41,831 bases of DNA. Source: Megalodesulfovibrio gigas DSM 1382 = ATCC 19364. GTDB taxonomy: Bacteria > Desulfobacterota > Desulfovibrionia > Desulfovibrionales > Desulfovibrionaceae. This document shows positions 14,917 to 31,016 of this stretch, in pieces (the stretch's first letter is position 1; each line of letters starts with the position of its first letter). Made by a program: the position numbers and the translations under genes. The stretch is from positions 3,591,922-3,633,752 of the forward strand of contig NC_022444.1 of NCBI RefSeq assembly GCF_000468495.1, written 5' to 3'. Below the pieces are notes generated by a model. That model saw only the letters and a list, made by a program, of their open reading frames with translations, did not search any database and had not been told where the DNA came from.

Positions 14917-16287
14917 ATGACCGCCATTCCCGCCTGTGTCGCCGCCCCCCGCGTGCTGCTCATCGAACCCACTTCCCGCTGCAACCTTGCCTGCGGCATG
15001 TGCCCGCGGCAGACGCCCGGCTGCGTGATGACCGATGGCGATCTTGCCTTCGAGACGTTGGCCGCCCTGGAAACCGTGCTGCCCGGGGTGGAGCGCGTCA
15101 GCCTGGCCGGCCTGGGCGAGCCGCTGTTGCATCCTCAGATTGTTGAGATCGTCGCCTGGCTGCGCGCCCGGCTGCCTGCCACGGCCCGCATCGGCCTGCA
15201 GACCAACGGCCTGTTGGTGACACAGGCCCTTGCCGATCGCCTGGCCGCCGCCGGCCTGGATCAGCTCTGCCTCTCCGTGGATGCCCTGGAGACTGCCCCG
15301 AACCAGCCCCTGCATGGCGGGTCCTTTCTGCCGGCCATCGAAAGCGCCTTTGCCTGCTTCCGCGAGGCCCGCACCCGTGCCGGCCGGCCGCTGGAGTTGG
15401 GGGTGGAATGCGTGCTCATGCGCAGCAACCGCCGCGCGTTGCCGGGACTGCTGGACTGGGCCGCCGGTCAGGGCGCAAATTTCGTGCTGGTGAGCCACCT
15501 GCTGCCACCGGCGCCGCAGTGGGCCGGGGAGTCCCTGTCCAACCCCAACGCCGCCGCGGCCGTGGCCCTGTTCCGGCAGGCCGAGGCCGAGACCAGGAGG
15601 CAGGGGCTCAACATTCAGGACATCCTGAAGCTGCAGTTGCGGTTCCGGCTGACCATGACCGGGGAGGAGCGCCGGCTGCAAGTCGTGGAAGCGGCCCTGC
15701 GCGAGGAAGCCTGCCAGCAGGGCGTACCCATCAATCTCAAGTCCCTGGTGGCATGGGCGGCGGACGAGGCCATGCAGGAACTGCCGGACCTCTTTGCCGT
15801 GGCGCGCCAGCAGGCTGCCCGGCACGGCCTGCGGCTGCATCTGCCCTCGCTGGCTGCGGCGGATGTGCGCGAGTGTCCCTTCCTGGCGCGGAACATCGCC
15901 TGCCTGGATGCGCACGGCAATGTCGCGCCCTGTCATTTCCTCTGGCATACGCACGTGACGGCAGAGCAGGGCCGGCCCAAGCGCATTGCGGCGACCTTTC
16001 TGGGACGATTGGGCGCGGCAGACGCGCCAGCCATGGACGCCCTCTGGAACGCGTCCTCCTCCCGGGCCTTTCGCGCCGAGGCCCAGGCCAGCGCCTCCCC
16101 GCGCTGCTACGATTGCGCCGCCTCGCCCTGCAGCGAGCTTATCCAGGCCGCCTACGGCGATGCCTGCGACTGTCTGGGCGGCGGCGTGCCGTGCGGTCAC
16201 TGTCCCTGGCCCCTGGGGCTGGTGTCCTGCCTGGGGACCGAAGGACCGCCCACTGTTGCCGCCAGTGATGCCCAGGTGGCGGCATGA
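14917..16287 (+). CDS. Radical SAM/SPASM-type iron-sulfur enzyme
   Basis: The 456-residue enzyme carries the radical SAM CxxxCxxC motif at Cys22, Cys26 and Cys29. A TIM-barrel-like region follows with GLGEPLLHP (SAM-binding GxGE-type motif) and LQTNGLL. The C-terminal third is Cys-rich: CPFLARNIAC, a CHFLWH segment, CYDCAASPC, CDC and CGHCPWPLGLVSC. This is consistent with SPASM-like auxiliary clusters. Similar deltaproteobacterial proteins have been described as putative metalloenzyme maturases, but the substrate is unknown. GGAG at 14907-14910 selects the ATG at 14917 over an in-frame ATG at 14893. It overlaps ruvC by 4 bases, so its translation is coupled to the Holliday-junction genes. 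Confidence 0.82.
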   Translation: MTAIPACVAAPRVLLIEPTSRCNLACGMCPRQTPGCVMTDGDLAFETLAALETVLPGVERVSLAGLGEPLLHPQIVEIVAWLRARLPATARIGLQTNGLLVTQALADRLAAAGLDQLCLSVDALETAPNQPLHGGSFLPAIESAFACFREARTRAGRPLELGVECVLMRSNRRALPGLLDWAAGQGANFVLVSHLLPPAPQWAGESLSNPNAAAAVALFRQAEAETRRQGLNIQDILKLQLRFRLTMTGEERRLQVVEAALREEACQQGVPINLKSLVAWAADEAMQELPDLFAVARQQAARHGLRLHLPSLAAADVRECPFLARNIACLDAHGNVAPCHFLWHTHVTAEQGRPKRIAATFLGRLGAADAPAMDALWNASSSRAFRAEAQASASPRCYDCAASPCSELIQAAYGDACDCLGGGVPCGHCPWPLGLVSCLGTEGPPTVAASDAQVAA

Positions 16288-16832
16288 CCGCTGCGGTGCG
16301 TGTGCTCGGCATCGATCCTGGCAGCCGCGTGGCCGGCTATGCCGTGGTGGAAGAGCGCTCGGGCAAGGCCTGTCTGGTGGAGGCCGGCACCCTGCGGCCG
16401 GATCCCTCCCTGCCCATGGCCCATCGTCTGGCGCGCCTGTATCGCGGCGTGGCGGATCTCATCGACCGGCACGCCCCGCACGAGGCGGCCATGGAGGAAA
16501 TCTTCACGGCCAAGAATGCCGCCTCGGCGTTGGTCCTGGGGCAGGCCCGTGGGGCCATCCTGGCCGCCTGCGGCGTGCTGGGACTGCCGGTGACGGGCTA
16601 TGAGCCGTCGGTGGTCAAAAAGACCCTGGTGGGCACAGGACGGGCGGATAAGGAGCAGGTGGCCTTCATGGTCCGCCGCATCCTCGCCGCCACGGAGGGC
16701 GCCTACGCCATGGACGCCACGGACGCCATGGCCGTGGCGGTCTGCCACTTGAACCATCGCCGCTTCGCCCGCCTGACCGCCACAGCAGAGACCACAGCGA
16801 AGCGCGGACGAGGGAGGGCCATGACGCCATGA
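16284..16832 (+). CDS. ruvC: Holliday junction endonuclease RuvC
   Basis: The 182-residue resolvase cuts Holliday junctions symmetrically after RuvAB branch migration. The RNase H-like active-site acids are visible: Asp11 in GIDPGSR, Glu71 in AMEEIF, and Asp144 and Asp147 in MDATDAMAVAVCH. The length is close to the usual 170-180, with a short basic tail. It starts with ATGA overlapping the radical SAM stop and ends with ATGA overlapping ruvA, so all three are translationally coupled. Confidence 0.95.
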   Translation: MTAAVRVLGIDPGSRVAGYAVVEERSGKACLVEAGTLRPDPSLPMAHRLARLYRGVADLIDRHAPHEAAMEEIFTAKNAASALVLGQARGAILAACGVLGLPVTGYEPSVVKKTLVGTGRADKEQVAFMVRRILAATEGAYAMDATDAMAVAVCHLNHRRFARLTATAETTAKRGRGRAMTP

Positions 16833-17440
16833 TTGCGTTCCTGCACGGCACCGTCACGTACTGCGACGAGGAATCCTGCGTGCTGCTCACCCCCGGTGGC
16901 GTGGGCTATGAGCTGACGTGTCCCATCCCGGTCCTGGCCAGCCTCAGGCAGGGCCAGGAGGCGTCGCTGCACGTGCAGACCATCGTGCGCGAAGACGCCA
17001 TAGAGCTTTTCGGTTTCCAGGATCGGGACACCCGGGACTGCTTCGCTCTGCTTATCTCCATCGCCCGCCTGGGGCCCAAGACGGCCGTGAACATCCTGTC
17101 CGTCTTCACCCCCGAGGACCTGCACCGCGTGGTCCTGGAGCAGGATGCCAGCGCCCTGACGGTGGTGTCCGGCATCGGCAAGAAAAGCGCGGAGCACATT
17201 TTTTTCGAGCTGTCATACAAGCTCAAGGCTCCGGCCGGCCGCAAGGGCAAGACGCCCGGCGCTTCGCCTGTTTTGGCTGGAAAATCAATGGTCTATAGAG
17301 ATGCATTGACGGGCCTGACCAACCTGGGATACGTGGAGGACGAGATCCGCCCGCACCTGGACGCCGTGCTCAAGGACGAGCCGGATCTGGACGTCTCCGC
17401 CGCCCTGCGCGCCGTGCTCAAACGGCTCATGAAGAAGTAG
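16829..17440 (+). CDS. ruvA: Holliday junction DNA helicase subunit RuvA
   Basis: This 203-residue protein has the N-terminal OB fold (MIAFLHGTV, GGVGYEL), two helix-hairpin-helix motifs (ISIARLGPKTAVNIL and VVSGIGKKSAEHI) and a C-terminal three-helix domain (about 150-203) that contacts RuvB. It binds the four-way junction as a tetramer and loads RuvB. It overlaps ruvC by 4 bases and is followed 3 bases later by ruvB. Confidence 0.96.
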   Translation: MIAFLHGTVTYCDEESCVLLTPGGVGYELTCPIPVLASLRQGQEASLHVQTIVREDAIELFGFQDRDTRDCFALLISIARLGPKTAVNILSVFTPEDLHRVVLEQDASALTVVSGIGKKSAEHIFFELSYKLKAPAGRKGKTPGASPVLAGKSMVYRDALTGLTNLGYVEDEIRPHLDAVLKDEPDLDVSAALRAVLKRLMKK

Positions 17441-17443
17441 CCC

Positions 17444-18409
17444 ATGGAACTTGCCTGCCCAGACGATCACATCCGCCCGCAACGGCTTGGGGATTTCATC
17501 GGCCAGGAGGAGCTTCGGGCCAACCTTGCCGTGTATCTCCAGGCCGCCCGCGAACGGGGTCAGGCCATGGACCATACCTTGTTCTATGGCAATCCCGGCC
17601 TGGGCAAGACCACCCTGGCGCGCATCATGGCCTCCGAGCTGGGCGTGAACCTGGTGTGCACCTCCGGCCCGGTGCTGGAACGCGGCGGCGACCTGGCCGC
17701 CATCCTGACCAATCTGGCCCGCAACGACATCCTCTTTGTGGACGAAATCCATCGCATGCCCGCGGCCGTAGAGGAAATACTCTATCCGGCCATGGAGGAT
17801 TTCAGCCTCGATCTGATCATCGGGCAGGGACCCGCCGCGCGCACGGTGAAGATCGATCTGGAGCCTTTCACCCTGGTGGGGGCCACCACGCGCCTGGGGC
17901 TGCTCACCTCGCCCCTCAGGGACCGCTTCGGCGCGCTGCTGCGCCTGGAATTCTACAGCCCGGAGGAGCTGGCGCGCATCGTCCACCGGGCGTCGCGCAT
18001 CCTGCAGACCACCGTGGACGAGGACGGCGCCCTGGAGATCGGCCGGCGCTCCCGCGGCACCCCGCGCATCGCCAACCGCCTGTTGCGGCGCGTGCGGGAC
18101 TTTGCCGCCGTGCAGGGCAAAGACGTCATCAGCAAGGATGTCGCCAGCCAGGCCCTGGAACGCATGGACGTGGACGAACACGGCCTGGACCAGATGGACC
18201 GCAAGCTCCTGGAGGTGCTCATCCACCACTATGGCGGCGGGCCGGCAGGCGTGAAGACGCTGGCCGTGGCCGTGGGGGAAGAAGTGCGGACCATCGAAGA
18301 CATCTATGAACCGTTTCTCATTCAGCGCGGCTTCCTGAAGCGCACCCCGCGCGGCCGCGTGGCCACCGCGCGGGCCTACAAGCACCTTGGCCTGTTGATG
18401 GGAGTTTGA
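17444..18409 (+). CDS. ruvB: Holliday junction branch migration ATPase RuvB
   Basis: The 321-residue AAA+ motor has Walker [10 protein letters not shown] at 49-57, Walker B FVDEIHR with Asp100 and Glu101, the sensor GATTRLG, the arginine-finger region LRDRFG, and a C-terminal winged-helix domain (about 245-320). It pumps DNA through the RuvA-bound junction. The N-terminus is slightly shorter than in many RuvB proteins but begins correctly before [11 protein letters not shown]. It sits 3 bp after ruvA and its stop is followed immediately by thyX. Confidence 0.96.
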
Positions 18410-18410
18410 C

Positions 18411-19142
18411 ATGCCCTGCGCCCAACGCCGGGTCCGGCTTCTGGCCGTGACGCCGGATGCGTTGTCGTTGATCTATGCCGCCTTCCGCCAATGCTATCAT
18501 ACCGGCTTCGTGGGCGAGATGTGGCCCAGACTCGTCGCCGGAGAAATCAGCCGCGACACACAGGCCGCCTTTGTCCGGCAGGTGTTGGAGTCTGGCCACG
18601 ACAGCCCCGTGGAACACGTGAGCTTCACCTTTGCCGTGGAGGGTGTTTCGCGGGCGTGCACGCACCAGCTGGTGCGCCACCGCATCGCGTCCTACTCGCA
18701 GCAGAGCCAGCGTTACGTGGACGAGACGGACTTCGACTATCTCGTGCCCCCGGCCATTGCCCGGAATCCGGCCGCCCTGGAACGCTTCGAGGCCTGCATG
18801 ACGGAAATTGCCAGCGCATACCAGGAATTGAAAGCCCTGCTGGAAGCCGCAGGCCGCGGCGCCAAGGCCAAGGAAGATGCGCGGTTCGTGCTGCCGCAGG
18901 CGGCGGAGTCCAAGATTGTTGTCACCATGAACTGCCGGTCGCTCCTGCATTTTTTCTCCCTGCGCTGCTGCAGCCGGGCGCAGTGGGAAGTGCGCGGCCT
19001 GGCCAACGACATGCTGGCCCTGTGCCGGGATGCCCTGCCGGAACTCTTTGCCGCGGCCGGGGCCCGGTGCGAACAATTGGGCTACTGTCCCGAGGGCGAG
19101 CGCTTCACCTGTGGCCGGTACCCCCTTCGCACGATCGCCTGA
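18411..19142 (+). CDS. thyX: FAD-dependent thymidylate synthase ThyX
   Basis: The 243-residue flavoenzyme makes dTMP from dUMP using methylenetetrahydrofolate and NADPH. The diagnostic RHRxxSxxxxSxR motif is present at Arg89-Arg101. HDSPVEHVSF upstream and the C-terminal LRCCSRAQWEVR substrate-binding segment also fit. It follows the ruvB stop by one base and is the last gene of the ruv operon. The neighbourhood couples dTMP supply with recombination and, downstream, with a dnaA gene. The region after it holds an inverted repeat that may terminate the operon. Confidence 0.95.
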   Translation: MPCAQRRVRLLAVTPDALSLIYAAFRQCYHTGFVGEMWPRLVAGEISRDTQAAFVRQVLESGHDSPVEHVSFTFAVEGVSRACTHQLVRHRIASYSQQSQRYVDETDFDYLVPPAIARNPAALERFEACMTEIASAYQELKALLEAAGRGAKAKEDARFVLPQAAESKIVVTMNCRSLLHFFSLRCCSRAQWEVRGLANDMLALCRDALPELFAAAGARCEQLGYCPEGERFTCGRYPLRTIA

Positions 19143-19220
19143 TTCGCCTCAAATTTGTAACGTTACGCACGATGAAGATACACTCCCTGAGGGGGGGAAG
19201 AATGGTCGATTTTGCCTGAG

Positions 19221-19266
19221 AAACCGGCGTGTGGGAGTGGTTGCTTGTCTCGTCGCGCGCCGGTTT
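19221..19266 (+). terminator. Inverted repeat after thyX, possible terminator
   Basis: AAACCGGCG (19221-19229) is a perfect inverted match of CGCCGGTTT (19258-19266), followed by one more T. The loop of 28 bases is long for a terminator. It lies 78 bp after the thyX stop and overlaps a second inverted repeat, TTTTGCCC/GGGCAAAA (19264-19271, 19302-19309), so alternative structures are possible. Confidence 0.4.
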
Positions 19267-19352
19267 TGCCCAAGCTGGGAGGGCTGTCAACCCCCTCCGG
19301 AGGGCAAAAAAATGCATCACCATCAGAAAAATTGAATATGGCGAGATCGTCC

Positions 19353-19407
19353 TGTGGAAAACTATTTTCAACAGGTGTGGATAAAAAAAGCGGATACCTG
19401 TGGAAAC
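19353..19407 (+). promoter_or_regulatory. Three DnaA boxes in the same orientation with exact 23-bp spacing
   Basis: TGTGGAAAA (19353-19361), TGTGGATAA (19376-19384, a perfect complement of TTATCCACA) and TGTGGAAAC (19399-19407) start exactly 23 bp apart. Two helical turns place them on nearly the same DNA face. TTTTCAACA (19365-19373) is a weaker box in the other direction and forms an imperfect inverted repeat with the first. The middle box is a consensus site; the outer two differ by one or two bases. Confidence 0.75.
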
Positions 19408-19583
19408 CCTTGTCCCGCGAGGGTTCAGCAGGGTGAAGCAGTCTAAAGGATTTCTCGTCTCATTCTATTATTCAAGATGGTTATGGCGATCCAACCCTAT
19501 GGAAAGCAACCGAAGGCAACTTCTTCCGCCGACTCTTTTTCGCCCCTTGCTCCGAGCCGTGTGCCCTTGTAGAGCTTTACCCC

Positions 19584-21050
19584 ATGAACACGCATTGGGA
19601 CCAGATTCGTCAAATCCTGCAGAAAACGGTCAATCCTGGCTTGTTTCAGGTCTGGATTGCCCCCCTTACGGCCGTTTCAAGCGGCCCAAATCTATGCCTG
19701 AAGGCACCGAATGAATTTGTAGCCATCTGGGTTCGTGACCGCTTGCTGGAGCAGATTCGGCAGGCGGCGGTGGCAGTGCTGGGCAGGCAGGTGGAGATCA
19801 CGGTCTCGGCGGATCCTGTTGGCGAGGCGGGCGATGCCCTGCTGACGGCTGCGGCCGTTGTCGGGTCTGGCGCCAGCTCGCGCGGCGGAAGTGTGTCTGG
19901 CGGTGCTGTCGTGGCCCGGCCGGCTCCGCTTCCTCGCAGTGCGTCTCACGCGTGTTCTGCCCCCACCGGCTCGCGGCAATTGGGGCTGCCTTTGCAGCCC
20001 GATGCACCCCGTTCCCGCCCCTGCTGGCAATTCTCCTTCGACGACTTCGTCGTCGGCCCCAGCAATCAGCTGGCTTATGCCGCAAGCCGAGCCTTGTGCG
20101 ACAAGCAATTGGAATCCGAGCAGGTGTTCCTTTCTTCCACTCCCGGCCTGGGCAAGACGCACTTGCTGCAAGCCGTGGGACGGAGCCTGTGTTCCCACTC
20201 GAATCGCCAGCAGGCGCGGGTTGAGTATCTCACGGCCGAGGAATTCGGCAGACTGTGGGTGCAGTCGTTGCGCAGTAACGAGCTGGAGCGCTTCAAGGCC
20301 CGGTTCCGGGAGGGCGTGGATCTGCTGCTGCTGGAGGACGTGCATTTCTTCCAGGGCAAGGAGAAGATGCAGGACGAGCTGCTTTCCACCATGAAGGCGC
20401 TTCGCAACCGTGGGGCCAAGGTTATCCTGACGTCTTCGTTCCTGCCCCGCGAACTCAAGGACGTGGATTCCACCCTGGCTTCGCGGTTCTGCTCGGGCTT
20501 TCTGGCGGTCATCGAGAAGCCCGGCTTCGAGACCCGCAAGCGCATTCTGGAGCAGAAGGCCAAGAGCTTCCACGTGGCCCTGCCCAACCAGGTGACGGAA
20601 TTGCTGGCGGAACGCATCAACACGGACATTCGCCAGCTGGAATCCTGCCTGCAGAACCTCATCCTCAAGGCCCGGCTGCTCAATCACAAGATCACCCTGG
20701 AACTGGCCTGCGAGGTGCTCAGCCACTACGAGCCGGAAATTCCGCACTTTTCCATGGATCGGATCATCGACTTTGTGTGCGACGCCTTTGAGCTTTCCCC
20801 CACCGAGTTGCGGTCCAAGAGCCGGCAGCGCCAGATTGTGCAGGCCCGCAACGCCGCCTACTTCCTGGCCCGCAAGCACACTGAACTGTCCTTGCAGGAC
20901 ATCGGCAACCGCTTCAACCGCAAGCACTCCACCGTCATCAAGGGCATCACGAACATTGAGCGCGAGATGAACCTGGAGACTCCCGTGGGCCGGCAGCTTT
21001 CCCGCACCGTGGAGCTGGCCAAGGCCTACTGCCGGGTGGGCGCCCGGTAG
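19584..21050 (+). CDS. dnaA: DnaA-family replication initiator, divergent
   Basis: The 488-residue protein has all four DnaA parts. Domain I (about 1-75) has the WDQIRQ start. A Ser/Ala/Pro-rich linker (80-145) follows. The AAA+ domain (about 147-370) has Walker A TPGLGKTH (Lys191, Thr192). The DNA-binding domain IV (about 388-488) has the signature HSTVI at 448-452. Several motifs are altered. Walker B reads LLLLEDVHF, with Glu251 where Asp is usual. Sensor 1 is LTSSFLPREL rather than LTSDRxPxEI, and SRFCSGF replaces SRFGWGL. It follows ruvCAB-thyX, and there is no dnaN, recF or gyrB nearby. It may be a paralog rather than the main initiator; the DnaA fold is certain. Confidence 0.9.
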   Translation: MNTHWDQIRQILQKTVNPGLFQVWIAPLTAVSSGPNLCLKAPNEFVAIWVRDRLLEQIRQAAVAVLGRQVEITVSADPVGEAGDALLTAAAVVGSGASSRGGSVSGGAVVARPAPLPRSASHACSAPTGSRQLGLPLQPDAPRSRPCWQFSFDDFVVGPSNQLAYAASRALCDKQLESEQVFLSSTPGLGKTHLLQAVGRSLCSHSNRQQARVEYLTAEEFGRLWVQSLRSNELERFKARFREGVDLLLLEDVHFFQGKEKMQDELLSTMKALRNRGAKVILTSSFLPRELKDVDSTLASRFCSGFLAVIEKPGFETRKRILEQKAKSFHVALPNQVTELLAERINTDIRQLESCLQNLILKARLLNHKITLELACEVLSHYEPEIPHFSMDRIIDFVCDAFELSPTELRSKSRQRQIVQARNAAYFLARKHTELSLQDIGNRFNRKHSTVIKGITNIEREMNLETPVGRQLSRTVELAKAYCRVGAR

Positions 21051-23112: not shown

Positions 23113-24091
23113 TCAGTCGTATTGCACGCTGGAGACGCGCATGAGCTTGTCCCAGTTGTGGTTGGATTCAATGTAACGCACGGTGCCGGTCTTGCCGCGG
23201 ATGACCAGGGAGTGCGTCACGGCGCCGCGGCCGCGATATTGCACGCCGCGCAGGAAGGAACCGCCAGACAGGCCCGTGGCGGCGAAGAAGACGTTGTCGT
23301 CGGCCACGAGGTCCGTTTCCAGAAGGACGCGGTCGAGGTCCACGCCGTCATTGAGCAGGCGCTGACGCTCGGCCTCGGATTGCGGGTCCAGCCGGCAGAC
23401 CATGCGGCCGCCGATGCCGCGGATGGCGCAGGCCGAGAGCACGCCTTCGGGCGTGCCGCCGGTGCCGAGCATCACATCCACCTCGGCGCGATCGTCCACG
23501 GCCATGAGGGAGCCGTTGACGTCGCCGTCGGTGTGCAACTGGATGCGCGCGCCTGCGGCGCGGATGTCGCGCACCAGGAGTTCATGGCGGGGCTTGTCCA
23601 GCACGAAGACCACAATGTCGTCCAGGTCCTTGCCCAGCGCCTTGGCCACCTTGCGCAGGGTCTGCCCCACGGGGGCATCCAGATCGTCATGGCCGATCAC
23701 ATGCGTGGCTGCGGCCGGGACCACGAGCTTCTTCATGTAGTAGCTGGCCCCGGGGGCGTACATGGAGCCGGCAGGGGCCAGCCCCACCACGCTGATGGCG
23801 TTGGGCCGGCCATAGGCCAGCAGGCGGGTGCCTTCCACGGGGTCCACGGCCACGTCCACGGCCGGCCCCTGGCCCGAGCCCACGGCCTCGCCGTTGTAGA
23901 GCATGGGGGCTTCGTCCTTCTCCCCCTCGCCGATGACCACGGTGCCGCGGATGTTCAGGGAGTTGAAGGAAAGGCGCATGGCGTCCACGGCGGCCTTGTC
24001 GCCGGCGTTCTTGTCGCCGCGGCCCAGCCAGCGGGCCGAAGCCAGGGCGGCGGATTCCGTGACGCGGACCAGATCCAGGGCAAGATTACGC

Positions 24092-24105
<14 letters not shown>
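23113..24105 (-). CDS. glpX: Class II fructose-1,6-bisphosphatase GlpX
   Basis: The 330-residue phosphatase converts fructose-1,6-bisphosphate to fructose-6-phosphate in gluconeogenesis. The length fits the class II family. Metal and phosphate motifs are present: GEGEKDEAPML, VDPVEGTRLLAYG, and the lithium-sensitive phosphatase fold segments DVMLGTGGTPEGVL and ATGLSGGSFL. Its start lies 14 bp inside the end of rpiB, so translation is coupled. This pairing places hexose and pentose phosphate recycling in one unit. Confidence 0.94.
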
Positions 24106-24583
<478 letters not shown>

Positions 24584-24619: not shown

Positions 24620-25465
24620 CTAGGGTTGCTCACGGATGACGGCGCCGGGGGGAATCTCCAGCGTCAGGGCGTCCTGGGGCCAGGGAGCGGGACGCAGCTC
24701 CAGGTCCTTGAGGAACAGGATGGCGGTTTCCCGGGCGGCCGTACGGGTCATGCGCACGCGCTGGGGCGTGAGGGGCGGAAAGCCCGGCGCGCCGAGTTCC
24801 TGCAGCTCCAGGGTCCAGGGTTCCTCGCCCTCGCCGGCGGGAATCTCCAGGGTCAGGGGCAGGCCGTCGGCATTCAGGGTCAGGGCGATGGGACCGCGGG
24901 CGGTAAAGCAGCCGTAGCGCACGGGGGCGTCGGTATCGCCCTGGGGCTGGGCGGTGTCGTAGTCCTGGGGAAGCAGGGCGTTCCAGTCGCCCATGAGCAG
25001 GCGGCCGAGGTCCTGCAGATCCAGGGGGAGGGCCATGCCGAAGGCGGCCATGCCGGCCAGGGTGTCCCGGAAGCGGAAGGCGGCGTTGTTGCCCGGGATG
25101 AAGACCAGGAATCCCTCCGGCCCTTCCCGCCAGTGGCCCACCATGGCCCCCACGCCGGCCTGCAGATCCAGCCGGATGGGCAGCTCGGCATTGCCCCACA
25201 GTTTGGCCACCACACGGTGCTTGCTTTTGGGGCCGGCGTAATTGAGGGAGGCCGTGGCGGAAAACGCCGGGGCCTGCGCCTGCTCGCCCTTGGCCCGGAA
25301 GGCCTGCCAGATGGTCCGGATGCGCTCCTGCATCGTGGTGTCTGACCGGTCTGGCGCCGGAGGCGTGGGGGCGCAGGCGGCGCAGAGCAGGCACGCGGCC
25401 ACCAGACCGGCCTGCCAGACGCGGAAAAGGCGTGGAGAATGGGAGGGCCGGGGGAAGATGCTCAT
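24620..25465 (-). CDS. LolB-like outer-membrane lipoprotein
   Basis: The 281-residue protein has a basic, hydrophobic N-terminus ending in LLCAAC, with Cys near residue 31 as the likely lipidated residue. The mature part has alternating strands consistent with a half-barrel of the LolA/LolB or DUF4292 kind: SATASLNYAGPKSKHRV and the strand-rich C-terminus. It may take lipoproteins to the outer membrane or act as a related carrier; this is inferred from fold-like pattern only. Its ATGA start overlaps the stop of the TPR lipoprotein gene by 4 bases, coupling the two envelope proteins. Confidence 0.65.
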   Translation of the reverse strand: MSIFPRPSHSPRLFRVWQAGLVAACLLCAACAPTPPAPDRSDTTMQERIRTIWQAFRAKGEQAQAPAFSATASLNYAGPKSKHRVVAKLWGNAELPIRLDLQAGVGAMVGHWREGPEGFLVFIPGNNAAFRFRDTLAGMAAFGMALPLDLQDLGRLLMGDWNALLPQDYDTAQPQGDTDAPVRYGCFTARGPIALTLNADGLPLTLEIPAGEGEEPWTLELQELGAPGFPPLTPQRVRMTRTAARETAILFLKDLELRPAPWPQDALTLEIPPGAVIREQP

Positions 25466-27192
25466 AACGCCTGCAGCTTCTTGCGGATGGTCTCCGGTTT
25501 TTTGTGGTGATATTTCAGCGCGTTTTCATACCCCGTGCGGGCCTGGGCCGTATGCCCCAGGGCCAGGGCGATATCTCCGTAATGTTCCCAGATGACAGGA
25601 TCATCCACGGGCTGGCCTTTGGAATCCACCACGGCCTGCTGGATGATGGCCCAGGCCTCCTGGATCTGGCCTTGCCGGAAGCGGACCCAGGCCATGGAGT
25701 CGAGGATGTAGTCGTTGCCGGGCTTGAGTTCCAGGGCCCGGGCGACGAGGTCCTGGGCGCGATCCAGATCCTTGCCCTTGTCCGCCAGGGTGTAGCCCAC
25801 GTAGTTGAGGGCGTCGGCGTTGTCCGGTTCCAGGTCAAGAATGCGTTCCATGACCGCAAAGGCCTCGGCGCGCTGCTCGGCGCGTTCCAGCACCAGACCA
25901 TAGGTGAAGAGGACTTCGGGATCGTCGCTCCAGCGTTCCTGGGCCTGGCGCAACAGGTCCAGGGCCTGCTCCGTCTGGCCGGACTCCTGCAACAGCCGGG
26001 CTTCCAGCAGCCAGAATTCGCTGACATCGGCATATCGCGCGCGGCTGGCGCGGGCCAGGGCCAGGGCCTCGGCGGTGCGGTCCGCCTCGAAGAGCAGGTG
26101 GATGGAAAAGCGCTGGCTGCGTTCGTGAAAGCGGCTGCTTTCGGGAATCTGGCGCAGGCATTCCAGGGCCTTGGCGCTGTCCTTCCGGCCTTCGTACTGG
26201 ATGAGGGCCTTGTGGAACCAGAGCTCCTTGAAGTCAGGATGCTCCTTCAGCACCGCATCAATGAAGGCATCGGCCTCATCGAACATGCCGGCATCCAGCA
26301 GGTATCCGGCCACGGGCAGGAAGGTGGGCAGATCCTGGGGGCCTTTTTCCACGAACTTCAGGGCCTGCTTAGGCTTGCCGAGTTTGATGTTCACCTCGGC
26401 CAATCTAAGGATAAGCTCCCGGCTGGGCTCGCCCAGTTCCATGATGCTCAGGTAGGTCTCTTCGGCGCCCTTGAAGTCCTGCATGGCCTCATAGGCATAG
26501 GCCAGCTCGGCCCAGGCCTCCAGGAATTCGGGGTCCTCCTTGAGCAGGGCCTTGAGGATGGGCACGGCCTCCTTGTGGCGCTCCAGGCCGGTGAGGGCCT
26601 TGGCGCGCAAAAACTGCCATTCACGGGGGTGCTTTTCCTGGGGGATGCTGGCGGGCGTCTGCTCCAGCAGCGTCATGGCCTGCTCGTAGACTTCTGCCTG
26701 CACCAGCATGGTGGCCAGCTCGGTGCGGGCGATGAGGTCCCCCGGGTTGCGGGTCAGGTAGTGTTCCAGCAGGGTCCGGGCTTCGTCGTAGCGTTGCTCG
26801 GCCAGGTACAGTTGGGCAAGCAGTAGCTGCAGTTGCAGGTTGTTCGGGTGGCGCTGCTGCCCTTCCTCCACCAGGATGCGGGTGCGGGCGGCGTCGCCGG
26901 CCTGCCAGAAGAAGTTGGCGCAGTCTATGAACACCTGGGGCGAGTCGTCCAGACTCAGGAGTTCCAGCACCGCCTGTTCGCCCAGGGTGGCGTTTTCCTG
27001 GCGGCGGGCATCCTCCAGCAACAGATAATAATAGGTGGCCTGGGCGTCTTTGGAGAGCTTCCAGCCCCCGGCGGCAGCGCCGGCAGGATTCTTCGGTACG
27101 GTGGCGCACGCGGCCAGCAGCAGACAGCCGGCCAGCAGGGCGCTCAACAACGGCAGGATGGTATGACGGCGCATGGACGGTGCGGTCCTCAC
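25462..27192 (-). CDS. TPR-rich lipoprotein
   Basis: The 576-residue protein has a signal peptide ending with a good lipobox LAAC (Cys29), then about ten to twelve tetratricopeptide units from about residue 45 to the end. These repeats build a protein-binding superhelix, probably at the inner face of the outer membrane. A second ATG at 27174 gives a shorter signal peptide and is an alternative start. It follows rpoH by 37 bp and overlaps the LolB-like gene, so a joint role in envelope assembly is plausible. No enzymatic domain is seen. Confidence 0.8.
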   Translation of the reverse strand: MRTAPSMRRHTILPLLSALLAGCLLLAACATVPKNPAGAAAGGWKLSKDAQATYYYLLLEDARRQENATLGEQAVLELLSLDDSPQVFIDCANFFWQAGDAARTRILVEEGQQRHPNNLQLQLLLAQLYLAEQRYDEARTLLEHYLTRNPGDLIARTELATMLVQAEVYEQAMTLLEQTPASIPQEKHPREWQFLRAKALTGLERHKEAVPILKALLKEDPEFLEAWAELAYAYEAMQDFKGAEETYLSIMELGEPSRELILRLAEVNIKLGKPKQALKFVEKGPQDLPTFLPVAGYLLDAGMFDEADAFIDAVLKEHPDFKELWFHKALIQYEGRKDSAKALECLRQIPESSRFHERSQRFSIHLLFEADRTAEALALARASRARYADVSEFWLLEARLLQESGQTEQALDLLRQAQERWSDDPEVLFTYGLVLERAEQRAEAFAVMERILDLEPDNADALNYVGYTLADKGKDLDRAQDLVARALELKPGNDYILDSMAWVRFRQGQIQEAWAIIQQAVVDSKGQPVDDPVIWEHYGDIALALGHTAQARTGYENALKYHHKKPETIRKKLQAL

Positions 27193-27229: not shown

Positions 27230-28345
27230 CTATTCGCTGCGCACGATCCAATCGTTTGAAAAATCGTCTATGTTATCTGTAAGATGCACTCTCAGTTTGT
27301 GCAGCAGCCGGGTTTCCAGCTGGCGGACACGTTCGCGGGTGATGCCGTAGCGCTCGCCGATTTCCCGCAGGGTGACCGGCGAATCTGCCAGCAGCCGCTG
27401 TTCGAGGATGTCGCGCTCCTTGTCCGAGAGTCTGGGCAGGATGCGTTCCAGGTGCCCCTGCAGCGCGATGGAGATTTCCGCCCGGGCCAGGGTATCTTCG
27501 ATGCTGGGCTGCAGGGCGGGCAGCACGTCGAGCCGGGTGGTGGTGGTGTCGTCCGCCAGGGTGGTGTCCAGGCTCATGTCCTGGCTGCCCAGGCGCTGCT
27601 CCATCTCCTGCACCTCCTCCACACTCACATTGAGGTTCTTGGAGAGGGTGGCGGTGTCCGGATCAAAGCCCAGGGACTGCAGCCGGCGGCGTTCCTTGTT
27701 CAGGTTGTAAAAAAGTTTGCGCTGGGCCTGGGTGGTGCCTATCTTCACCAGCCGCCAGTTGTCCATGATAAATTTAAGGATGTAGGCCTTGATCCAGAAG
27801 GCGGCGTAGTAGGAGAACTTGATGCCCTTTTCCGGATCGAACTTCTGCACGGCGCGCATGAGGCCCACATTGCCTTCCTGCACCAGATCCAGCACGTTCT
27901 GCATCCAGCGGCGCTGGAAATCCATGGCGATTTTGACCACCAGCCGCAGATGGGAGGTGACCAGCTGGAAGGCGGCGTCGCTGTCGTTCAGGTCGCGCAC
28001 GCGGCGGGCCAGCTCGAATTCGGCCTCGGGCTCCAGCATGGGAAACGCCCCGATTTCCTTGAGATACAGCCGCAGGGTATCCTGCGCGCCGGCACGCGGG
28101 CCGGATTTGAACACCGGCATGGGCAGGGCGAGGGGCGGGGGGGCTTCGCCGTCGGGATCGAGCGAGGCGTCGATGGCGGGGAGGTCTTCCTCAAGGAATT
28201 CCTCCTCGGGGGCTTCGTCCAGTTCCAGGTCGTCGCTTTCGTCGTCCTCTGCCGGCTCGGGGTCCAGCACCTCGGCTTCGGCGACCACGCGGGACGGCGT
28301 GGCGGATGGCAGGATGGCTTCGCCGGATGGCTTGCGAACATTCAT
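27230..28345 (-). CDS. rpoH: Heat-shock sigma factor RpoH with acidic N-terminal extension
   Basis: The 371-residue sigma-70 family factor has region 2 (about 88-160) with LVQEGNVGLMRAVQKFDPEKGIKFS and region 4 (about 300-360) with LREIGERYGITRERVRQLE. The RpoH-specific box QRKLFYNL lies near 185-192, which separates it from the housekeeping sigma. An acidic Asp/Glu-rich extension of about 85 residues precedes region 1.2; ordinary RpoH is about 285 residues. GGAGGG upstream supports the ATG at 28345. It directs heat-shock gene transcription and diverges from metH; a promoter candidate lies at 28445-28473. Confidence 0.88.
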   Translation of the reverse strand: MNVRKPSGEAILPSATPSRVVAEAEVLDPEPAEDDESDDLELDEAPEEEFLEEDLPAIDASLDPDGEAPPPLALPMPVFKSGPRAGAQDTLRLYLKEIGAFPMLEPEAEFELARRVRDLNDSDAAFQLVTSHLRLVVKIAMDFQRRWMQNVLDLVQEGNVGLMRAVQKFDPEKGIKFSYYAAFWIKAYILKFIMDNWRLVKIGTTQAQRKLFYNLNKERRRLQSLGFDPDTATLSKNLNVSVEEVQEMEQRLGSQDMSLDTTLADDTTTTRLDVLPALQPSIEDTLARAEISIALQGHLERILPRLSDKERDILEQRLLADSPVTLREIGERYGITRERVRQLETRLLHKLRVHLTDNIDDFSNDWIVRSE

Positions 28346-28444
28346 GATATGGCACCCTCCCGCCGGCAGGCCTCGGCATGGGGCACCAGGGCGGGTATGG
28401 CTTGAAAACCAGTTGGAAAGGTTGATGATTTTTCCATTCTGGCC

Positions 28445-28473
28445 ATAGTATAGTTTTTGTTTGTCCTTTTCAA
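28445..28473 (-). promoter_or_regulatory. Candidate sigma-70 promoter for rpoH
   Basis: On the minus strand, TTGAAA (28473-28468) is followed after 17 bases by TACTAT (28450-28445). The stretch is AT-rich against a GC-rich background and sits about 100 bp upstream of rpoH. TATACT overlaps but would give a 15-bp spacer. Confidence 0.4.
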
Positions 28474-28565
28474 CGCTTTTCAGTACCAAGGTGCGGACTG
28501 CCGACACCGGCGGCTGCCGCGACAGCACGCCGCGCCTGCCGTTTTTCCTTACCAAGGAGTGCATC

Positions 28566-31016
28566 TTGCCTGATTTCGACTGGCTGCGCAATGCAACGAC
28601 AGTGTTATGCTTTGACGGCGCCACGGGAACCATGCTCCAGGAGGCCGGGCTGCCGGCTGGCATGTCGCCGGAGCTGTTCGGTCTGACGCGGCCGGACGTC
28701 ATGCGCGGGGTGCACGATGCATACATCGCCGCCGGGGCGGACGTCATCACCACCAACACCTTTGGCGGCACGGGCCACAAGCTGGGCCTGGGCGTGGATG
28801 TGACCGAGGTGAACCGCGAGTTGGCCCGCTGCGGCCGGCAGGCGGCGGATGCTGCTGGCGGCCGCGTGAAGGTGGCCGGCAGCGTGGGACCCACGGGGCA
28901 GTTCCTCAAGCCCATGGGCACCCTGACCCCGGCCGAGATGCGCCAGGTCTTCCATGAACAGATTCTGGGCCTGGTGCAGGGCGGGGTGGATCTGCTCATC
29001 GCCGAAACCCAGTACGATATCGCCGAGATTCGCGCCGTGGCCATGGCGGCCCGGGAGGTCTTCCGCGAGGTGGGCCGCGCCGTGCCCGTGGGGCTGTCCA
29101 TGACTTTTGAGCGCGGGGCCACCCTCACCGGCACGCCGCCCGCGGTGTTTGCCGCCGCCGCCCAGAATCTGGGCGTGGACTTTGTGGCCATCAACTGCGG
29201 TCTGGGACCCGACGAGATGTTGTCCCTGGCCGAGGCCATGGTGCCGGCGCTGCAGATTCCCCTGCTGGTGCAGCCCAACGCCGGCCTGCCCCAGCTCAAG
29301 GACGGCCGCACCGTCTTCACCCTGGGGCCGGACGAATTTGCGGAAAAGATGCGCCCGTATCTGCAACTGGGCGTGCGCATGGTGGGCGGCTGCTGCGGCA
29401 CCACGCCCCGGCACATCAGCGCCCTCAAGGCGGTCATCAAGGATGTTGTGCCTGCGCCGTGCGCGGGGCAGGGGGTGCTGCATCTGGTCTCCCGTTCCCG
29501 GCTGGTGCGGGTGGCGCCGTTTTTGCCGCATGTGGTCATCGGGGAACGCATCAACCCCACGGGCAAGAAGCAGCTCACGGCCGAATACCAGGCCGGAGAA
29601 CTGCAGCTGGCCCTGCAGTACGCCACGGAACAACTGGAAGACGGCGCCCAGGTGCTGGATGTGAACGTGGGCGCGCCCATGGTGGATGAGCAGGCGCTGC
29701 TGCCGCTGCTGACGGAAACCCTGGCCGCGCGGGTGGAGGCCCCCCTGTGCCTGGATTCCACAGACCCGGCCGCCCTGACCCTGGCCCTGGACCGGTGCCC
29801 GGCCGGCGCGCTTATCAATTCCATCAGCGGGGAACCCGGCCGCATGGAGATCCTGGGGCCCCTGTGCCGGGATCACGGCGCGCCGTGCATCCTGCTGCCC
29901 CTGACCAGCAAGAAACTGCCCGTGACCGCGGCGGAGCGCATCGCCATCATCGAATCCCTGGTGCAGCAGGCCCTGGATCTGGGCATCCCCCGCGCCAATC
30001 TGATGGTGGACGCCCTGGCCCTGACGGTTTCCTCCAGGCAGGACGCCGCCGTGCAGTGTCTGGCCACCATCCGCCATTGTACCGAGGTGCTCCGGCTGCC
30101 CACGGTGTTGGGGCTTTCCAACATCTCCTTCGGGCTGCCGGCGCGCGAACTGCTCAATGCCACCTTCCTGACCCTGGCCATGGGCGTGGGCCTGTCCGCC
30201 TCCATCGCCAACCCCCACGCCACCCGCCTCAAGGAGGCCCGGGCCGCGGCAGAGGTGCTCCTGGGGCGCGATACCAACGCCGAATCCTTCATCGCCGGCT
30301 ATACGAACTGGAAGCCCGGCGGCGAGGGGGGCGGGACCTCCGGCAGTCCGGCTGGCGGCGGTGTTGCCAAAAAATCCGCCACCACCTTGAAAGAAGCCGT
30401 GCTGATGGGGGATAAGTCCCGCATCCAGCCCCTGGTGGAAGCGGCCCTGGCCGCAGGCATGACGCCCATGGCCGTGGTGAACGAGGAACTTATTGCCGCC
30501 ATCACCCAGGTGGGAGAAAAATACGAGCGCCGCGAATACTTCCTGCCGCAGCTCATTGCCAGCGCCGAAGCCATGCAGCACGGCTTCCGCATCCTCAAGC
30601 CATTGCTGGACAAGGCCGAGGCCGAGGGGGAAAAGGTCCACAAGCCCGTGGTCATCCTGGCCACGGTGGAAGGGGACATCCACGACATCGGCAAGAACAT
30701 CGTGGCCCTGATGCTTGGCAACCACGGGTTTGAGGTGCATGATCTGGGCAAGGACGTGCCGGCGGAAACCATCGTCCGGGCAGCCAAGGAGCGCGGGGCA
30801 TCCATCATCGGCCTCTCGGCCCTCATGACCACCACCATGGTGCGCATGGAAGACACCGTCAAATTGTTGCGCGAAGAAGCCTTGCCGGCCAAGGTCATTG
30901 TGGGCGGGGCCGTGGTGAGCCAGGAATATGCAGATCGCATTGGCGCGCACGGCTATGCTCAGGACGCCGTGGCCGCCGTGCGGCTGGCCAAGGAATTGAC
31001 GGCGGCGCGGGCCTGA
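28566..31016 (+). CDS. metH: Cobalamin-dependent methionine synthase, short form
   Basis: The 816-residue enzyme transfers a methyl group from methyltetrahydrofolate through B12 to homocysteine. The homocysteine-binding domain (about 1-290) has the zinc ligands Cys211, Cys276 and Cys277 (GGCCGTTPRH). The pterin domain (about 315-570) and the B12 cap and binding domains (about 605-816) follow. The DxHxxG signature at Asp704, His706 and Gly709 gives the His that ligates cobalt. The C-terminal AdoMet reactivation domain of the E. coli enzyme is absent. TTG at 28566 is chosen because AAGGAG (28553-28558) sits 7 bases before it and conserved sequence begins there. It diverges from rpoH. Confidence 0.9.
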   Translation: MPDFDWLRNATTVLCFDGATGTMLQEAGLPAGMSPELFGLTRPDVMRGVHDAYIAAGADVITTNTFGGTGHKLGLGVDVTEVNRELARCGRQAADAAGGRVKVAGSVGPTGQFLKPMGTLTPAEMRQVFHEQILGLVQGGVDLLIAETQYDIAEIRAVAMAAREVFREVGRAVPVGLSMTFERGATLTGTPPAVFAAAAQNLGVDFVAINCGLGPDEMLSLAEAMVPALQIPLLVQPNAGLPQLKDGRTVFTLGPDEFAEKMRPYLQLGVRMVGGCCGTTPRHISALKAVIKDVVPAPCAGQGVLHLVSRSRLVRVAPFLPHVVIGERINPTGKKQLTAEYQAGELQLALQYATEQLEDGAQVLDVNVGAPMVDEQALLPLLTETLAARVEAPLCLDSTDPAALTLALDRCPAGALINSISGEPGRMEILGPLCRDHGAPCILLPLTSKKLPVTAAERIAIIESLVQQALDLGIPRANLMVDALALTVSSRQDAAVQCLATIRHCTEVLRLPTVLGLSNISFGLPARELLNATFLTLAMGVGLSASIANPHATRLKEARAAAEVLLGRDTNAESFIAGYTNWKPGGEGGGTSGSPAGGGVAKKSATTLKEAVLMGDKSRIQPLVEAALAAGMTPMAVVNEELIAAITQVGEKYERREYFLPQLIASAEAMQHGFRILKPLLDKAEAEGEKVHKPVVILATVEGDIHDIGKNIVALMLGNHGFEVHDLGKDVPAETIVRAAKERGASIIGLSALMTTTMVRMEDTVKLLREEALPAKVIVGGAVVSQEYADRIGAHGYAQDAVAAVRLAKELTAARA

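Follow-up and report, generated by a model that had tools for sequence, protein, structure and literature searches.

The stretch of DNA analysed (41,831 nucleotides; called the window) corresponds to positions 3,591,922-3,633,752 of the chromosome (C2) of Desulfovibrio gigas. The genome of this bacterium consists of a chromosome of 3,693,899 bp and one extrachromosomal element (PMC4287179), represented here by contigs of 3,693,899 and 102,023 bp. The window contains a dnaA gene, which we call dnaA2, the name dnaA1 being used for a divergent dnaA located before dnaN. The gene order at the locus is ruvC-ruvA-ruvB-thyX-dnaA2, and dnaN is not adjacent to dnaA2. An array of DnaA boxes is located 177-231 bp upstream of the dnaA2 start codon. 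The features of this region, in window positions, are as follows.

16284-16832, plus strand: ruvC
16829-17440, plus strand: ruvA
17444-18409, plus strand: ruvB (RuvB_N, 2.2e-75)
18411-19142, plus strand: thyX, flavin-dependent thymidylate synthase, upstream of dnaA2 (Thy1, 3.3e-70)
19353-19361, minus strand: DnaA box 1, TTTTCCACA (TGTGGAAAA on the plus strand), with 0 mismatches to TTWTNCACA; the best-conserved box of the array
19365-19373, plus strand: inverted DnaA box, TTTTCAACA, between boxes 1 and 2
19376-19384, minus strand: DnaA box 2, a perfect TTATCCACA (TGTGGATAA on the plus strand)
19399-19407, minus strand: DnaA box 3, GTTTCCACA (TGTGGAAAC on the plus strand), with one mismatch
19466-19471, plus strand: TATTAT, a possible but weak -10 element of a dnaA2 promoter
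19584-21050, plus strand: dnaA2, a DnaA-type initiator of 488 aa, with Lys at the position of Asp433 and a recognition-helix loop one residue shorter

The TATTAT candidate follows box 3 at a distance of about 60 bp; it was recognized by eye and from a conserved A/T stretch in an alignment with 10 relatives (A1); a sigma-70 scan of positions 19100-19650 found no plus-strand promoter. An Rfam search of the window found no RNA. Other genes of the window encode a glpX-type fructose-bisphosphatase (23113-24255, minus strand), a TPR protein (25462-27192, minus strand) and a protein with cobalamin-dependent methionine synthase domains (28461-31016, plus strand), the last of these ORFs being overlapped on the opposite strand by a sigma-70 type ORF (27230-29845, minus strand).

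The original prediction described three nonamers in the same orientation, starting at 19353, 19376 and 19399, the middle one a perfect DnaA box, with AT-rich patches on both sides and a dnaA gene downstream. A box scan confirmed the three positions and their common strand, and the middle nonamer reads TTATCCACA on the minus strand. The downstream ORF (19584-21050) carries DnaA_N, Bac_DnaA and Bac_DnaA_C domains, and the flanks are indeed AT-rich, with a GC content of 0.33 at 19300-19339 and 0.33-0.38 at 19440-19499, versus about 0.59-0.66 in the adjacent kilobases. The first reading overlooked a fourth box, TTTTCAACA, which lies on the opposite strand at 19365. A density of at least four boxes per 60 bp was reached in none of 60 dinucleotide shuffles of the window, in which the maximum was three and the usual value one. 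The array is the second-strongest box cluster in the 2.25 Mb scanned (61% of the chromosome), in which one other cluster scores as high.

We investigated the conservation of the array in 58 regions upstream of dnaA2 from across the order Desulfovibrionales. A DnaA box was present between positions -270 and -180 in 55 of the 58 regions (shuffles: mean 9.2, maximum 17). Same-strand pairs of boxes 21-23 bp apart were found in 28 regions (shuffles: mean 0.08, maximum 1) and opposite-strand pairs 10-12 bp apart in 15 (shuffles: mean 0.07); these regions are related, several coming from close species, and the counts are not independent. Throughout the order, the array keeps its position with respect to the dnaA2 start. 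The exact 23-bp period proposed initially holds for D. gigas, but not for its relatives, in which same-strand pairs are separated by 22 bp (n = 16), 23 bp (n = 13) or 21 bp (n = 5); what is conserved is the boxes and a spacing close to two helical turns, in most cases 22-23 bp, rather than a strict 23 bp. All columns of TGTGGAAAA (box 1) are invariant in alignment A1, and in many relatives box 1 is paired with box 2 at a spacing of 21-23 bp. An equivalent of box 3 (GTTTCCACA or CTTTCCACA, at -184/-185) is present in the closest relatives (L003 and L159-L163). In the nearest of these (L003, 87% protein identity), the outer boxes are still 46 bp apart and the middle box is worn. In the genus g10 (L159-L163), boxes are found at -229, -207 and -184. 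At loci where the upstream DNA examined shows no thyX (for example, L012, L014, L015, L032 and L033), the array is still found with dnaA2.

The dnaN gene of D. gigas lies at C2:1,210,529-1,211,677, with dnaA1 before it and gyrB, called from a reading of the sequence, after it. The dnaA1 gene encodes a protein of 430 aa from a GTG start, with 22% identity to dnaA2, and lies 1.3 Mb from the latter. Among 150 Desulfovibrionales genomes, a dnaA2 match was obtained in 149. The dnaN gene was present in each of the 20 complete genomes checked, and in 19 of them the best dnaA1 match is a separate DnaA-type frame directly before this gene. The dnaA1 match was weaker or split in members of g3 and g16, and in G010 the dnaA1 search matched the dnaA2 locus only. 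In a FastTree phylogeny of 112 DnaA sequences, dnaA1 and dnaA2 formed separate clades with full support; the dnaA2 clade sits among the DnaAs of other Desulfobacterota, with the deeper branches modestly supported. D. gigas and 19 of the 20 complete relatives encode two distinct DnaAs, a less familiar setting than the array itself. Our search of the literature yielded no relevant work on the dnaA copies of Desulfovibrio or on an experimentally determined oriC, and no report of a two-dnaA setting was found in the literature searched.

A cluster of boxes with AT-rich flanks adjoining a dnaA gene has the classical layout of an oriC of the dnaA-dnaN type, and an origin core was one of the two roles proposed for the array, with a GC-skew minimum expected at this place. 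The skew is positive to the left and to the right of the array. In the cumulative GC-skew curve, calculated from stretches totalling 2.25 Mb (61% of the chromosome), a sharp minimum is seen next to dnaA1-dnaN-gyrB, at about 1.18-1.205 Mb, together with a maximum at 2.38 Mb. The latter coincides with a dif-like site, TCATCACATAATGTAAATTATGTTAACT (C2:2,380,672, minus strand), the best hit of a loose scan, identical to one dif query at 22 of 28 positions; no match to a gammaproteobacterial-type dif core was found with up to three mismatches allowed. The features at 1.2 and 2.38 Mb would give replichores of about 1.2 and 2.5 Mb. A second minimum, numerically lower, is located at 3.505-3.53 Mb, about 80-100 kb from the array, and together with a second maximum near 0.02 Mb it brackets a segment of about 0.2 Mb containing dnaA2. 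The simplest reading of this segment is an inverted piece of one replichore; the second minimum and maximum may also reflect an assembly error, or there may be a second origin at 3.51-3.53 Mb, which even so would lie about 80-100 kb from the array.

The relatives were analysed with a strand-biased motif, AGGGCAGGG/CAGGGCAGGG (also C/AGGGCAGGG), derived with the skew-defined strands of D. gigas. The motif switched from minus to plus close to dnaN in three genomes: at 0.77-0.89 Mb in G140 (dnaN at 0.90), at about 2.96-3.08 Mb in G144 (dnaN at 2.94) and at 1.01-1.07 Mb in G067 (dnaN at 1.14). Two switches occurred within 1.9-2.7 Mb in G095 (dnaN at 2.70). No origin-type switch of this polar motif was found at dnaA2 in any of these four genomes. 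In G089, the motif bias was weak, and the switch (about 4.65 Mb to 0.5 Mb) lay at neither dnaN nor dnaA2. DnaA-trios, an unwinding motif described as a feature of oriC (PMC8287927), were sought by eye, and no run of 3'-GAT repeats was seen after the boxes on either strand.

The array locus is thus not at the replication origin, which lies elsewhere, near dnaA1. It differs from an oriC of the dnaA-dnaN type, despite its clustered boxes near dnaA and AT-rich flanks, in having no skew minimum, dnaN, strand switch or DnaA-trios. It is accordingly very improbable that the array is a working oriC core, whether of the main or of a second origin. The second negative-to-positive change in skew is one point in favour of such a core. 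Another is that no canonical DnaA-box cluster was found in C2:1.17-1.24 Mb, around the skew minimum beside dnaA1-dnaN-gyrB, which leaves the sites of the true origin missing. These points are opposed by the positive skew on both sides of the array, the sharp minimum beside dnaA1-dnaN-gyrB with a dif-like site at a maximum, and the strand switches near dnaN in relatives. The location of the origin also has a consequence for genome annotation: a zero point set at "dnaA" in Desulfovibrionales may fall far from the origin. G095 and G103 are numbered from dnaA2.

The other role originally proposed, that of a DnaA-controlled promoter, fits the order-wide conservation before dnaA2 of the boxes and of their spacing of about two turns, features of the sequence that suggest such control. 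We consider the array to be, most likely, a DnaA-binding control element of the dnaA2 regulatory region that tunes dnaA2 transcription. The boxes exceed chance expectation, are conserved together with dnaA2 and are kept where no thyX is found in the upstream DNA examined; no strand switch marks the locus in D. gigas or the four relatives; and DnaA boxes in dnaA promoters, with autoregulation, are established in other bacteria, all of which favours this interpretation. Autoregulated dnaA promoters with DnaA boxes have been described in E. coli, B. subtilis, Vibrio harveyi, Streptomyces and mycobacteria (PMC8203912; PMC5835720). The same-strand boxes are two helical turns apart, with the inverted box half-way, an arrangement in which DnaA molecules upstream of the dnaA2 start would be aligned along nearly the same face of the double helix. 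Binding of this kind would most likely tune dnaA2 transcription, and by analogy with E. coli and B. subtilis the probable sign of this effect would be negative feedback. We infer all three elements of this scheme: DnaA binding at the array, its effect on transcription and the sign of that effect. The array would then be a conserved case of a familiar type of control, in a two-dnaA setting. It resembles the dnaAp1/p2 region of E. coli in having TTATCCACA-type boxes upstream of dnaA (PMC5835720; PMC8203912). It differs from that region in having three same-strand boxes at 23 bp and one inverted box, in the distance of these boxes from the start codon, and in that dnaA2 coexists with a second dnaA gene and does not adjoin dnaN.

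Several observations weigh against control of dnaA2. A distance of 177-231 bp from the start codon is far for simple occlusion, and no promoter could be placed confidently. The dnaA promoter of Pseudomonas putida has 12 DnaA boxes, but self-repression was not seen (PMC8203912), so that such boxes are not in themselves proof of autoregulation. A conserved element could also act on DnaA activity or titration instead of transcription. In a reading of this kind, the array would resemble DARS or datA, acting on the nucleotide state of DnaA or titrating the protein, with its position before dnaA2 being secondary. E. coli DARS1, DARS2 and datA are likewise short intergenic clusters in which DnaA boxes occur in both orientations; a group of at least three such boxes in about 55 bp is reminiscent of DARS cores, DARS1 and DARS2 sit in the promoter regions of uvrB and mutH (PMC5835720), and equal spacing suits cooperative assembly. 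The D. gigas array differs from these elements in being tied to dnaA2 in position, and the constancy of this position across the order fits control of dnaA2. The number of boxes, only four, is below that of typical titration clusters. We therefore regard a DARS- or datA-like function as improbable.

Control of dnaA2 by the array, the preferred interpretation, does not in itself identify the DnaA protein involved. In E. coli, helix 5 of domain IV (residues 432-435 and 438-439) makes base-specific contacts, and box specificity is thought to arise there (PMC5043019). The recognition helix of DnaA1 retains GG(K/R)DHST or DHTT in all 19 copies examined, whereas the position of Asp433 is occupied by Arg, Lys, Thr or Ser in all 63 DnaA2 copies examined, and the loop is one residue shorter. 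A DnaA2 recognition helix lacking the canonical Asp implies that self-binding is not assured. The boxes before dnaA2 are canonical (TTWTCCACA), and DnaA1 may therefore be their reader. Under this variant of dnaA2 control, with a different binder, DnaA1 would read the canonical boxes and set the level of DnaA2. The canonical helix of DnaA1, its alteration in every DnaA2 copy examined and the presumed role of helix 5 in specificity argue for cross-control of this kind. However, loops one residue shorter and similar to that of DnaA2 are common among the DnaAs of other Desulfobacterota, and DnaA2 may consequently still bind such boxes; moreover, the dnaA1 flanks contain no box array. We consider cross-control by DnaA1 a plausible variant, but short of probable. 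The DnaA1 helix is canonical, yet C2:1.17-1.24 Mb is without a canonical box cluster. More tentatively still, a two-initiator circuit can be envisaged, in which DnaA1 would read the boxes before dnaA2 and control a DnaA2 with changed DNA reading, the origin on the dnaN side being without canonical boxes; we find such a circuit rather doubtful. At stake are the identity of the DnaA that initiates replication and a possible control of one DnaA by the other.

The strongest cluster of DnaA-box-like sequences in the 61% of the chromosome read lies at C2:31,276-31,453 (L145:11276-11453), near a skew maximum. It comprises three perfect TTTTCCACA boxes and one weak box in 180 bp, and is located between a putative hydrolase gene and an apparent membrane-bound hydrogenase operon.
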